Below the pieces are notes generated by a model, which worked only from the letters and a program-made list of their open reading frames with translations, was not told the DNA's origin and searched no databases. Positions 20,187 through 24,300 of a stretch of 64,000 nt of DNA are shown here, piece by piece. Location: assembly GCA_033391075.1 (NCBI GenBank), contig JAWPMV010000001.1, forward strand, positions 2,852,001-2,916,000, written 5' to 3'. Source of the stretch: Bacteroidia bacterium. GTDB lineage: Bacteria; Bacteroidota; Bacteroidia; J057. The translations under genes and the position numbers were made by a program. How positions within the stretch are numbered: the first letter of the stretch is position 1; the number at the start of each line of letters is the position of its first letter.

Positions 20187-22589
20187 CTAAAACCTCAAGG
20201 CCACATTAAACAAGGCATTTGTTCCCGCCTGTGGATAGTAGTAGTTGAAAGTATTCAACTCCTGTCCCAGGAAGAAGCTAAACGTATAACCATTGGGTTC
20301 ATACTGAACATCAAAGAGGTTATTTACCAATAAGCCTAATCGAACCTCTTTCGCCCATTTGGTTTTAAAGCTATAATTGATCCGAAGGTCATTGATAAAA
20401 AAGGCATCTATCGCCCTATTCTCATTGGAAGTATTATCCAAAAATTGCTGCCCGACATATTTACTGATCAGGTTGATCTCCATATTCTTTACGGGCATAT
20501 AAGTCAAAGTAGCTCCTCCGATCACATTGGGGGAAAAGGAGATATCGGTGTTTTCAAAATCATTCACAATTACTTCAAAGGGATCATAGTTGTAGAGTAC
20601 TTCTGCAAAGTTCTTGATCTTGTTTTGACTCAAAGCCAAATTCGCTGATACTCTGAAAGTTGGAGCTAGTAACACAGATCCCACCAACTCTAATCCTGCA
20701 CGATAACTATCTTTTACATTCTGTCGGATATTAGAACCCACATCATTAAGTTCTCCCGTCAGGACCAGTTGATTATCATAATCCATATAGTATCCTACTG
20801 CTTCGAAGCTGGCTTTCTTTCCCCCAAACCTATAGCCCAATTCCAGATCATAGAGGGTTTCAGCTTCCGGGATCGTTCCTTCCGGCGCATCGATGAAGTC
20901 ATTCCTCACAGGTTCTCGATTGGCCACACTATAAGAGATATAGACATTGCTTTTCTCGCTTAGTTGGTAGGTTAAACCGGCTTTAGGGTTAAAGAAAGTG
21001 AAGTTCTGATCTCCTTGAATTTCTCTTAAGTCAGAATCTATTCCAGGCCTTTCTAAGCTTTCATCTCCCCAGACATAATCGATATTCCTGATTTGCAGGT
21101 CAACATATGCGCTCAATTTTGGATTGAGTTGCAAAATTGCTTTCGCATAAGTGTTGAAATCTCTTTTGCGCGCATCATTGTCATAATAGCGTCCTCTAAT
21201 CTCTGAATCTCCGGAAAATCGGGCCCAGATCACCTCACCAAAATGGGCTCCATCGTATTGATTGGCCGCTCCTCCTATGCTCAATTGAAAATTGCTTTGG
21301 GGGCTATAGTTCAATGAATAAATCATCCCGAAAAGATCATTGTCCAACCACCTTCTTCTGATCAAATCAGTTGTGCTTAGCGTATCTCCATTAAAAACCG
21401 CCTGGCTAAATCCAATATTTGGATAATCAGCAAAATCATCTTCTTCTCGAAATTGCTCAAAATATCCCTGGCCTTTGGTATAATGAAGAGAAGCATTGAA
21501 GTTCAATTCGGGATTGATCTCCTGACCGAAATGTAATTGATAATGGGTTTGGCGATAATTGTCCACCTCATTTTCGTAGGTATAAAAATTGGAGTTCCGA
21601 GTCTCGGGATCGTCCAATAAGGATTCTTCAGTTCCCCACCAGGATTGATAGGTGATTTCTCGTCCTGAAAAGATGTTAAATTTTAGAAAATTCTTTTTCC
21701 CATAAATCCCTCCGGAAACAAAAAAGGATTTCAAATCAGAAGAAGCTCTGTCAACCCAGCCATCTGAAGTGATATTGGACAGGCGCAGGTCTAAGGCAAA
21801 TTTATCATTGATCAATCCAGTGCCCGCCTCCACCGTATTTTTCCAACTATTGAAAGAACCATAGCTATTTGACAGCTCAGCATAAGGCTCATAGTTCAGG
21901 GTATTGGTTTGAATATTGATACTTGCGCCAAAGGCTCCCGCTCCATTTGTTGATGTACCGACTCCTCTTTGGACCTGGATGTTGTTGATGGAGGAGGAAA
22001 GGTCAGGCGTATTTACCCAAAAAACCCCATGGCTCTCAGGATCATTGAGGGGCACGCCATTAATGGTAACATTGGTACGGCTTGCATCACTCCCTCTGAT
22101 CCGGATTCCCGTATATCCTATTCCCGCTCCAGCATCTGAATTAACAACTGTACCAGGCACCTGATCCAAAAGAAAAGGAATATCCTGTCCAAAGTTTTCC
22201 TTACGGATTTCATCCTTGGAAATATCCGTATAGGTGGTAGCCGTCTTTTCAGAAGCTCTCAGGGAAGTAATGATTACCTCTTCGGTTATCGTTTTTGTAG
22301 CGATGAGTTCAAAATCCAGCCTACTGTCTTCAACGAGATTTAGGCTCTGCTCAATGCTTTGAAAATTGTCCTTGCGGACTTGAATGGTATAATTGCCAGA
22401 AGGCAAATCAGAAAAATAATAGGAACCATCTTCACGAGTGATGGCTAGTTTTTCCAGTTGAAGGATTCTTACCTCCACTGCAGAAAGACTTTCGGCTGAA
22501 TAATCAGCTTTTACGGTACCAGTCAGAGTAAATTGCGCCATAAGACTAAACGGCAGCAATAAGCTCCACAATACTAAAATAGACTTCAT
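20187..22589 (-). CDS. TonB-dependent receptor under a TPP riboswitch (likely thiamine uptake)
   Basis: This approximately 800-residue outer-membrane receptor has a signal peptide (M-K-S-I-L-V-L-W start, ending L-M-A-Q), then an N-terminal carboxypeptidase-like beta-sandwich (about residues 22-100). A plug domain follows (about 105-215) with I-R-I-R-G-S-D-A-S-R and N-G-V-P-L-N-D-P. The rest is a 22-strand-type barrel ending in a terminal strand with F. An upstream ATG at 22619 would add ten residues and is less signal-peptide-like. A TPP riboswitch lies directly upstream, so the receptor is most simply an importer of thiamine or a thiamine precursor, driven by TonB-ExbB-ExbD. It is last in the run DUF423, PnuC, kinase, riboswitch, receptor. 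Confidence 0.9.
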   Translation of the reverse strand: MKSILVLWSLLLPFSLMAQFTLTGTVKADYSAESLSAVEVRILQLEKLAITREDGSYYFSDLPSGNYTIQVRKDNFQSIEQSLNLVEDSRLDFELIATKTITEEVIITSLRASEKTATTYTDISKDEIRKENFGQDIPFLLDQVPGTVVNSDAGAGIGYTGIRIRGSDASRTNVTINGVPLNDPESHGVFWVNTPDLSSSINNIQVQRGVGTSTNGAGAFGASINIQTNTLNYEPYAELSNSYGSFNSWKNTVEAGTGLINDKFALDLRLSNITSDGWVDRASSDLKSFFVSGGIYGKKNFLKFNIFSGREITYQSWWGTEESLLDDPETRNSNFYTYENEVDNYRQTHYQLHFGQEINPELNFNASLHYTKGQGYFEQFREEDDFADYPNIGFSQAVFNGDTLSTTDLIRRRWLDNDLFGMIYSLNYSPQSNFQLSIGGAANQYDGAHFGEVIWARFSGDSEIRGRYYDNDARKRDFNTYAKAILQLNPKLSAYVDLQIRNIDYVWGDESLERPGIDSDLREIQGDQNFTFFNPKAGLTYQLSEKSNVYISYSVANREPVRNDFIDAPEGTIPEAETLYDLELGYRFGGKKASFEAVGYYMDYDNQLVLTGELNDVGSNIRQNVKDSYRAGLELVGSVLLAPTFRVSANLALSQNKIKNFAEVLYNYDPFEVIVNDFENTDISFSPNVIGGATLTYMPVKNMEINLISKYVGQQFLDNTSNENRAIDAFFINDLRINYSFKTKWAKEVRLGLLVNNLFDVQYEPNGYTFSFFLGQELNTFNYYYPQAGTNALFNVALRF

Positions 22590-22621
22590 GTAAATTGGTA
22601 GAAATTTATGGTTACACATAT

Positions 22622-22641
22622 GGGAGCAGGGGATAGCTCCC
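22622..22641 (-). promoter_or_regulatory. Hairpin between TPP aptamer and receptor start
   Basis: GGGAGC and GCTCCC can pair around an 8-nt loop, directly in front of the upstream ATG (22619) and about 32 nt before the preferred ATG (22589). It has no U-tract, so a translational rather than terminator expression platform is more likely. This is inferred. Confidence 0.45.
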
Positions 22642-22659
22642 GAATCATGTAATGACCAT

Positions 22660-22746
22660 ACCTAGAACTCCCTTCGCCCGCATAATCGGGATCAGGTTCT
22701 AAGGGTATAATCTCAGCCTGTCCTCAAGACAGGCACCCCTGTTTAG
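22660..22746 (-). ncRNA. TPP (THI-box) riboswitch
   Basis: Read on the minus strand, all conserved THI-box blocks appear in order: GGGGTGCC, then a variable P3 hairpin (CCTGTCTTGAGGACAGG), CTGAGA, ATACCC, GAACCTGATC and GCGAAGGGA. An imperfect P1 stem pairs CTAAAC near 22741-22746 with GTTCTAG near 22662-22668, with one bulge. Thiamine pyrophosphate binding would lower expression of the downstream TonB receptor. The riboswitch is placed after the PnuC and kinase genes, so it would not directly control them unless they share a transcript. Confidence 0.95.
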
Positions 22747-22773
22747 TCGGCACAAAGGTATAGAGAAGCTTTT

Positions 22774-23295
22774 TTACTTTGCAAGTATTCTTTGATTTAT
22801 TTCAGAAACTGCAAACTTCAAGCGTTCTTCTTTTGTACCTCGGATGATACTAAATGAAAGTCCTAATTGCCTGAGGGAGTGGTGATAAATGTTGAAAAGC
22901 TCTACTCTTTGTTCGGGATGTTCTCGCAAAGGATCAAAGCTCCAGGCTATGTCGGTATCGCAAAGAAAATAGTGTCTGTATTCTTCGAAATTATATAATT
23001 CTTCCAGGGCGGGATCCGCATTCCCGTATTTAAATTCAGACCAGATCTTTATGACAAGGAGGTTAGTATCGCAAATCAAGAAAGATGGATTATTAGCCAA
23101 TAGTTTTTCCTCTAGTTGGAGTTGCCCCAAAGCGATTTCGATCAAATCGCTCTGTCCATATGGCCTGGCTAAATTTTCCAGATATTTCCGGGCATATTCT
23201 TCTACCCAGGGAAGATCGTAATGAGCAGCCAGATCCTTTGCCAAACTACTTTTTCCGGTAGATTCAGGACCAACTATGGCAATTTTCGGAATCAT
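22774..23295 (-). CDS. NadR-like P-loop nucleoside/vitamin kinase
   Basis: This 173-residue P-loop protein of the AAA_28/NadR-NRK type has Walker A G-P-E-S-T-G-K-S-S (residues 9-17) and W-V-E-E-Y-A-R-K-Y-L, the typical NadR ribosylnicotinamide kinase segment. I-C-D-T-N-L-L near residue 73 is the second acidic motif. It lacks the NadR adenylyltransferase and DNA-binding domains. Its start overlaps the PnuC stop (ATGA), so the kinase is cotranslated with a PnuC-type transporter and probably traps the transported compound by phosphorylation. Given the downstream TPP riboswitch, the substrate may be thiamine rather than nicotinamide riboside; both are possible. Confidence 0.85.
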   Translation of the reverse strand: MIPKIAIVGPESTGKSSLAKDLAAHYDLPWVEEYARKYLENLARPYGQSDLIEIALGQLQLEEKLLANNPSFLICDTNLLVIKIWSEFKYGNADPALEELYNFEEYRHYFLCDTDIAWSFDPLREHPEQRVELFNIYHHSLRQLGLSFSIIRGTKEERLKFAVSEINQRILAK

Positions 23296-23930
23296 ACAGC
23301 CAACGCTTTTTCAGCTTCCTCTTCCTTATATTTTTTCTTCCATTCCATATACCCCATAATAGCAAGCGCAGTAAACACCAGGAATTGGATACTCGTCAAG
23401 GTCAATCCTTTGTAAATGTATAAAGGCACAGAAACCAAATCGCCAATGATCCAATAAACCCAGTTTTCTACTTTCTTCCGAGCCATTTCCCACATACCTA
23501 CAAAGAAAATAGAGGTGGTAAAAGCATCTATATATGGGACTGTAGAAGGAGTGAAATTCACCAAGACAAAAGCTAAAGTCAGGTAGAAGAGAACAAAAAG
23601 CGAAATACTCAGGATGCGTTCTTGTCTAGTATGCATACTGATGGGCAAAACTGCTTTTTCTTCAGCAGGGCGGGTCCACATATACCAACCAAAAATGCTC
23701 ATGGCAAAGTAATAGGCATTGATCCCCATGTCTCCAAACAGACCTGCTGTATAGCATACATAGACATAAATCCCCGTAGAAATCAATCCTGTAGGGTACA
23801 CCAGAATATTCTCCCGCATTGCAAAGTAAACACTCAAAAGGCCAAAAATTACCCCAATTACTTCCAGCCATATATCCAACTGGCTGTATTCAGCATAAGG
23901 AGCAAACAAGAACTCCACTATCTCAGTCAT
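23292..23930 (-). CDS. PnuC-family vitamin transporter (PnuC/PnuT)
   Basis: This is a 212-residue membrane protein with about seven or eight helices and a basic-acidic C-terminal tail. PnuC hallmarks are present: Y-P-T-G-L-I-S-T-G-I-Y near residues 46-56, F-G-W-Y-M-W near 79-84 and the I-I-G-D-L-V-S-V-P-L-Y-I-Y-K-G segment near 161-175. Homologues facilitate uptake of nicotinamide riboside (PnuC), thiamine (PnuT) or riboflavin (PnuX); specificity is set by few residues. Location beside a NadR-like kinase and a TPP-riboswitch-controlled outer-membrane receptor favours thiamine. It overlaps DUF423 by 8 bp and the kinase by 4 bp. Confidence 0.88.
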   Translation of the reverse strand: MTEIVEFLFAPYAEYSQLDIWLEVIGVIFGLLSVYFAMRENILVYPTGLISTGIYVYVCYTAGLFGDMGINAYYFAMSIFGWYMWTRPAEEKAVLPISMHTRQERILSISLFVLFYLTLAFVLVNFTPSTVPYIDAFTTSIFFVGMWEMARKKVENWVYWIIGDLVSVPLYIYKGLTLTSIQFLVFTALAIMGYMEWKKKYKEEEAEKALAV

Positions 23931-24300
23931 TTCTTTTCAACTTTATGGCCCAAAATAAAATGAGGCCCCAACCCACAATCAGGATACTTCCACCGATAGG
24001 CGTAACTATACCCAGCTTAATGGGCGTTAGGACTAGCAGGTAAATGGACCCGGAAAATAATAGCGTCCCCAGGATGCTCGCATAGGTCGCGTATTTGAGT
24101 TGGGCACTTTCATATTTCTCCATCACAATTCCCAATAGGAACAAAAGGAGCGCATGGTACATTTGAAAGCGAACAGCTGTTTCAAAAGAATCCAGCAAAT
24201 CAGCACTCAGGCTTTTTTCCAGGGCATGGGCTGCCATTGCTCCCAAAATCACAGCCGTCAAGCCATATATTGCGGCAATTATATAAGCTAATTTTGACAT
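23923..24300 (-). CDS. DUF423 membrane protein
   Basis: This 125-residue protein with four hydrophobic helices matches the small DUF423/YgdD family. It has G-A-M-A-A-H-A-L-E-K near residues 21-30, then Y-H-A-L-L-L-F-L-L-G and the final P-I-G-G-x-x-x-I-x-G-W segment near residues 100-111. The function of the family is unknown. Its 3' end overlaps the PnuC start by 8 bp, so it begins the vitamin-transport run, perhaps without functional relation. Confidence 0.85.
   Translation of the reverse strand: MSKLAYIIAAIYGLTAVILGAMAAHALEKSLSADLLDSFETAVRFQMYHALLLFLLGIVMEKYESAQLKYATYASILGTLLFSGSIYLLVLTPIKLGIVTPIGGSILIVGWGLILFWAIKLKRND

Follow-up and report, generated by a model that had tools for sequence, protein, structure and literature searches.

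The window analysed here is a stretch of 64,000 nucleotides from a Bacteroidia bacterium (contig JAWPMV010000001.1). On its minus strand, a DUF423 gene, pnuC, an AAA_28 kinase gene, a TPP aptamer and a TonB receptor gene follow one another (Table 1). The DUF423 gene and pnuC overlap by 8 nt and pnuC and the kinase gene by 4 nt, so these three genes look like one operon. pnuC is on the strand of the receptor gene and one gene away from it. The kinase gene encodes 173 amino acids, which make up the kinase domain alone, and its stop codon is 23 nt ahead of the aptamer. The receptor has plug, barrel and carboxypeptidase-like domains in Pfam. An earlier note on this DNA had assigned the interval 22589-24300 to PnuC, the kinase and the switch; the interval does cover all three, and the DUF423 gene also lies inside it. 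Besides the window, a DUF423 gene ahead of pnuC was seen only in G081 (locus L046), a relative of the same family.

Table 1. Features of the locus, with positions numbered along the window
Feature	Position	Strand	Evidence
DUF423 membrane protein gene, first of the upstream set	23923..24300	-	Pfam PF04241, E 2e-25
PnuC-family inner-membrane transporter, read as PnuT (thiamine)	23292..23930	-	PF04973, E 5.6e-61
Stand-alone NadR-RNK-like P-loop kinase, predicted thiamine kinase	22774..23295	-	PF13521 (AAA_28), E 6.7e-35
Possible -33 element TTG, 21 nt spacer, within the last kinase codons	22782..22784	-	Weak alone
Bacteroidota -7 promoter box TACCTTTG, consensus TAnnTTTG	22753..22760	-	Consensus and position from PMC9723704
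TPP riboswitch aptamer (THI element)	22652..22750	-	RF00059, 69.7 bits
Hairpin GGGAGC-TATCCCCT-GCTCCC in the aptamer-to-start-codon interval; possible expression platform	22622..22641	-	Sequence and fold
TonB-dependent outer-membrane receptor, OMthi/omr1 type	20187..22589	-	Pfam plug and beta-barrel matches

The aptamer matches RF00059 over the full model (1-105; Infernal) with 69.7 bits vs a cut-off of 54.3 and an E-value of 1.2e-11, and it is the sole TPP riboswitch in the 9.49 Mb genome. Together with the gene coordinates, this bears out the earlier placement of a TPP aptamer directly before the TonB receptor gene and after the PnuC and kinase genes. No terminator was called between the aptamer and the receptor start codon. 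The hairpin in this interval is not terminator-like because it has no U-run, and a conserved terminator as the expression platform was dropped since no U-run hairpin precedes the start codon. A loop complementary to the GGGG strand of the aptamer, over 6 nt in the window and 10 nt in G001, was striking at first; across 37 loci, however, this complementarity was not above that of shuffled sequences, so loop pairing is not claimed. The transcript level of OMthi in Bacteroides thetaiotaomicron is unchanged (PMC5613172), which suggests translational control. Binding of TPP to the riboswitch would lower production of the receptor, probably at translation, and we infer that the element is an off-switch for receptor expression.

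Relatives were compared in a sample of 119 Bacteroidia genomes, with the class judged by named relatives and gene content, and 100 loci were fetched. Of 40 classified switches, 38 are directly followed by the same receptor family and the other two by a PnuC gene. The kinase gene is at most 1 kb upstream of the switch in 20 of the 62 kinase-bearing genomes, from many families, and downstream of it in none of the 62. pnuC and the kinase gene overlap or are at most 30 nt apart in 49 of 51 cases. Scanning named genomes with a single sequence gave 8 loci. The full order pnuC-kinase-switch-receptor was found in three contigs of named organisms (a Roseivirga, a Cytophagia MAG and a Flavobacteriales MAG) with a kinase-aptamer gap of 33-37 nt. 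The gene order of the window is not a peculiarity of this genome. The kinase-switch-receptor arrangement is kept with pnuC far away in G001, G008, G049 and G084, and switch-receptor stands alone with pnuC-kinase elsewhere in G002, G004, G006, G021, G032, G040, G063, G067, G081, G082, G083 and G111. Thus pnuC-kinase and switch-receptor are separable modules, often far apart in relatives, and the description of the switch as placed inside one run is not the most fitting. Two genomes, G031 and G069, have the Bacteroides order switch-receptor-PnuC-pyrophosphokinase; receptor profile scores are 965-978 in these and 1150 in the window. Kinases encoded before switches do not form a phylogenetic branch of their own; they are scattered through the tree, in keeping with a single function and a reshuffled gene order.

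Other neighbours of these modules were also seen. ThiC-less genomes have, at about 11 loci, a degenerate ThiE/TenI-like gene directly before pnuC-kinase (L087, 4303-4938; also L053, L068, L067, L071 and L096, among others), a further neighbour of thiamine type. In family f39 (L036, 5569-6642; L049, 3877-4965; L041, 3854-4975), the gene after a TPP-switched PnuC gene overlaps or abuts it, and its product resembles acyl-CoA dehydrogenase/flavin monooxygenase and is possibly a thiamine-related oxidoreductase. In G106 of this family, the receptor gene stands between the TPP switch and the PnuC gene.

In Flavobacterium psychrophilum, a TAnnTTTG -7 box is located at -12 to -5 of transcription starts (PMC9723704). 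Of 41 loci, 30 have such a box within 20 nt before the aptamer (-20 to -4); dinucleotide-shuffled sequences yielded a mean of 0.4 and a maximum of 3. Where the kinase stop codon is at most 60 nt from the aptamer, the box is present in 9 of 10 loci, the window included, and the tenth has a TTCG form of it. In the window, transcription would be expected to start near 22748, at the 5' end of the aptamer. The frequent promoter box directly ahead of the aptamer suggests that two transcription units adjoin here, a reading that suits the array better than one continuous run. Since a promoter right ahead of the aptamer would serve the receptor gene, PnuT and the kinase would escape the switch, and consensus matching suggests that the promoter-switch-receptor unit alone is under TPP control. 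The earlier note had held that only the receptor is strictly controlled by the switch, and this fits with the receptor family after 38 of 40 switches, the kinase never downstream and the promoter box. It is rather unlikely that a single mRNA runs from the DUF423 gene to the receptor gene with the switch as an internal operon element acting on the receptor only. Although the aptamer begins so soon after the kinase stop codon and no terminator was called in the interval between them, such an mRNA accounts neither for the box in 30 of 41 loci and 9 of 10 close-stop loci nor for the switch-receptor unit being free-standing in many genomes. Read-through from upstream may nevertheless add to the local promoter.

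For the AF2 model of the kinase (pLDDT 94.9), the best structural match is the ribosylnicotinamide-kinase (RNK) domain of NadR (8X7F; Z 22.6, rmsd 1.8 A over 172 residues, 23% identity), followed by thymidylate and deoxycytidine kinases. A profile search also puts the NadR RNK domain as the nearest solved relative, and the model has a P-loop RNK fold. The NMN-adenylyltransferase (NMNAT) domain is absent from the kinase, which scores 76.9 against TIGR01526 (NadR) vs a cut-off of 341 bits. Its sole Pfam match is PF13521, and PF04263, the catalytic domain of thiamine pyrophosphokinase, is not in it. Stand-alone kinases mostly carry the motifs DT....K(I/V)W and W..DPLRE(H/N)P, and in NMNAT-fused members and E. 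coli NadR, the first motif mostly has TT or TQ and the second DG. In the tree, the NMNAT-fused forms group loosely, together with the kinases of G062 and G095, with modest support. NadR-like fusions of NMN adenylyltransferase and kinase occur in G094 (L048), G014 (L056) and G055 (L149), those of G094 and G014 adjoining pnuC, and probably represent true nicotinamide riboside (NR) pathways in the same class. G014 and G055 have a separate stand-alone kinase in addition to the fused NadR, and the copy before the switch in G055 is the stand-alone one.

The genome of the window is 99.2% complete, and a genome-wide search found no ThiC, ThiE or thiamine pyrophosphokinase (PF04263) in it. Thiamine must therefore be imported, and an enzyme other than PF04263 must phosphorylate it. 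The genome keeps ThiL (312 bits) and has one AAA_28 kinase and one PnuC. The survey across genomes covered the presence of ThiC, ThiE, ThiL, PnuC, the kinase and the pyrophosphokinase. Among the 80 ThiC-less genomes of the 119, 58 have the kinase only, 18 the pyrophosphokinase only, none both and 4 neither. The 30 genomes with ThiC but with neither pyrophosphokinase nor PnuC all lack the kinase. Four ThiC genomes do have a kinase: that of G094 is an NMNAT-fused true NadR, those of G062 and G095 have a C-terminal extension, and G038 remains. The extension in G062 and G095 (L072 and L078) is about 500 amino acids long, and these kinases stand beside ThiC and pyrophosphokinase as an exception to the exclusion. 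In 326 genomes, the kinase was found in 188 and the pyrophosphokinase in 69, and both occurred in 6 vs 39.8 expected; in the 207 genomes outside the first sample, both occurred in 4 vs 26.8 expected. The six genomes with both enzymes come from two families. Counted by family (30 kinase-only, 16 pyrophosphokinase-only, 3 both), the p-value is just 0.004, so the exclusion partly reflects shared ancestry. Near-exclusion is what a replacement of one enzyme by the other would produce, and it supports well the earlier suggestion that the kinase may phosphorylate thiamine.

PnuC is present in 74 of 80 ThiC-less vs 9 of 39 ThiC genomes. NCBIfam TIGR01528 labels the PnuC of the window an NR transporter. 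Given a single PnuC and the lack of ThiC, ThiE and pyrophosphokinase, however, thiamine transport is the economical reading, and the protein is best read as the thiamine transporter PnuT. In its last helix, TM6, it has Asp in WIIGD, where the NR transporter 4QTN and that of E. coli have Asn. Asp is also found in the switch-linked PnuT of G031 and G069; since the N-to-D change is not universal, this single residue was dropped as a marker of thiamine-type PnuC.

We propose, with a probability of roughly 0.83, that the locus is a system for thiamine uptake and activation. The TonB receptor would bring thiamine across the outer membrane, PnuT would pass it over the inner membrane and the NadR-RNK-like kinase would trap it as thiamine monophosphate, which ThiL, encoded elsewhere in the genome, would turn into TPP; the riboswitch would act on the receptor only. 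The analysis shows the parts and their recurring order, the promoter box, the exclusion between kinase and pyrophosphokinase and the fold; we infer the substrates, the monophosphate product, the ThiL step and the direction of control.

Three other roles of the kinase were weighed. The kinase may be bispecific for thiamine and NR, in keeping with its descent from an NR-kinase fold. Both compounds are cationic aromatic alcohols. This is doubtful, as the phyletic pattern tracks thiamine only and the host genomes would need an NMN-adenylylating partner. Direct formation of TPP by pyrophosphate transfer, with no need for ThiL, is improbable. The kinase replaces thiamine pyrophosphokinase one for one, and nearly all genomes retain ThiL, including those with pyrophosphokinase and without ThiE, where it is seemingly unneeded; a direct transfer thus stays conceivable, and retention of ThiL was dropped as proof of the monophosphate route because pyrophosphokinase genomes keep it too. 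Yet ThiL is in every kinase genome of the sample, and the known P-loop kinases of the RNK fold transfer one phosphate. Least probable is that PnuC and the kinase are the NR salvage pair that TIGR01528 and the nearest solved relative of the kinase suggest, merely beside an unrelated thiamine receptor unit: a role in NAD synthesis predicts neither the absence of the kinase from all 18 ThiC-less pyrophosphokinase genomes nor that from the 30 ThiC genomes without PnuC, it would leave 58 genomes that depend on thiamine with no known enzyme to phosphorylate it, the kinase stays with the switch in the four genomes where pnuC has moved, and the true, NMNAT-fused NadR is a separate protein with a different signature.

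Many Bacteroidota from the environment are unable to synthesise vitamin B1, and a recent survey found several of them without any described B1 system (PMC10881298). The kinase of the window, which usually goes under the name of a vitamin B3 kinase, is most likely the thiamine kinase that is missing in many Bacteroidota. We consider it probable that in more than half of the sampled Bacteroidia, imported thiamine is phosphorylated by this so far unrecognised stand-alone family, which derives from the NadR RNK fold, at present carries the annotation of an ATPase or NR kinase, is paired with PnuT and lies outside the TPP switch. If true, about half of the class (188 of 326 genomes) would receive a corrected annotation, the life of these auxotrophs on external thiamine would be explained, and PnuC-kinase pairs would no longer be counted as vitamin B3 salvage. 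The locus would also be a clear case of a riboswitch restricting only the energy-driven outer-membrane step.

The window resembles PnuC with NadR RNK (H. influenzae 1LW7, L. lactis 6GYE and 8X7F) in transporter family and kinase fold (Z 20-22.6). Unlike NadR, however, its kinase has neither an NMN-adenylyltransferase nor an HTH domain, carries WxxDPLRE(H/N)P and K(I/V)W where NadR has WxxDG and TTQ, is linked to a TPP switch and has a distribution that tracks thiamine genes. ThiK (YcfN) is the thiamine kinase of enterobacteria and works with ThiL; the window kinase would likewise make the monophosphate that ThiL turns into TPP. ThiK has an aminoglycoside-phosphotransferase-like fold, different from the RNK fold, and a thiamine kinase of the window type would be an independent invention. 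Melnick 2004 is cited on ThiK in PMC8552899. We found no report of a NadR-like thiamine kinase in the open literature, where the assignment appears unreported; subscription papers and curated subsystems may hold one. The receptor, PnuT and TPP switch are of a known kind (PMC5613172, PMC6977713). Thiamine uptake in Bacteroides thetaiotaomicron is carried out by OMthi (BT2390) and pnuT-tnr3 (BT2396-2397) (PMC5613172). Like that system, the window has a TPP riboswitch before a TonB receptor gene, a PnuC-family transporter and a predicted thiamine-activating enzyme encoded with the transporter. It differs in that biosynthesis genes are missing, an RNK-fold kinase stands in place of the thiamine pyrophosphokinase tnr3, and the transporter and kinase genes are located upstream of the switch, apparently outside its control.
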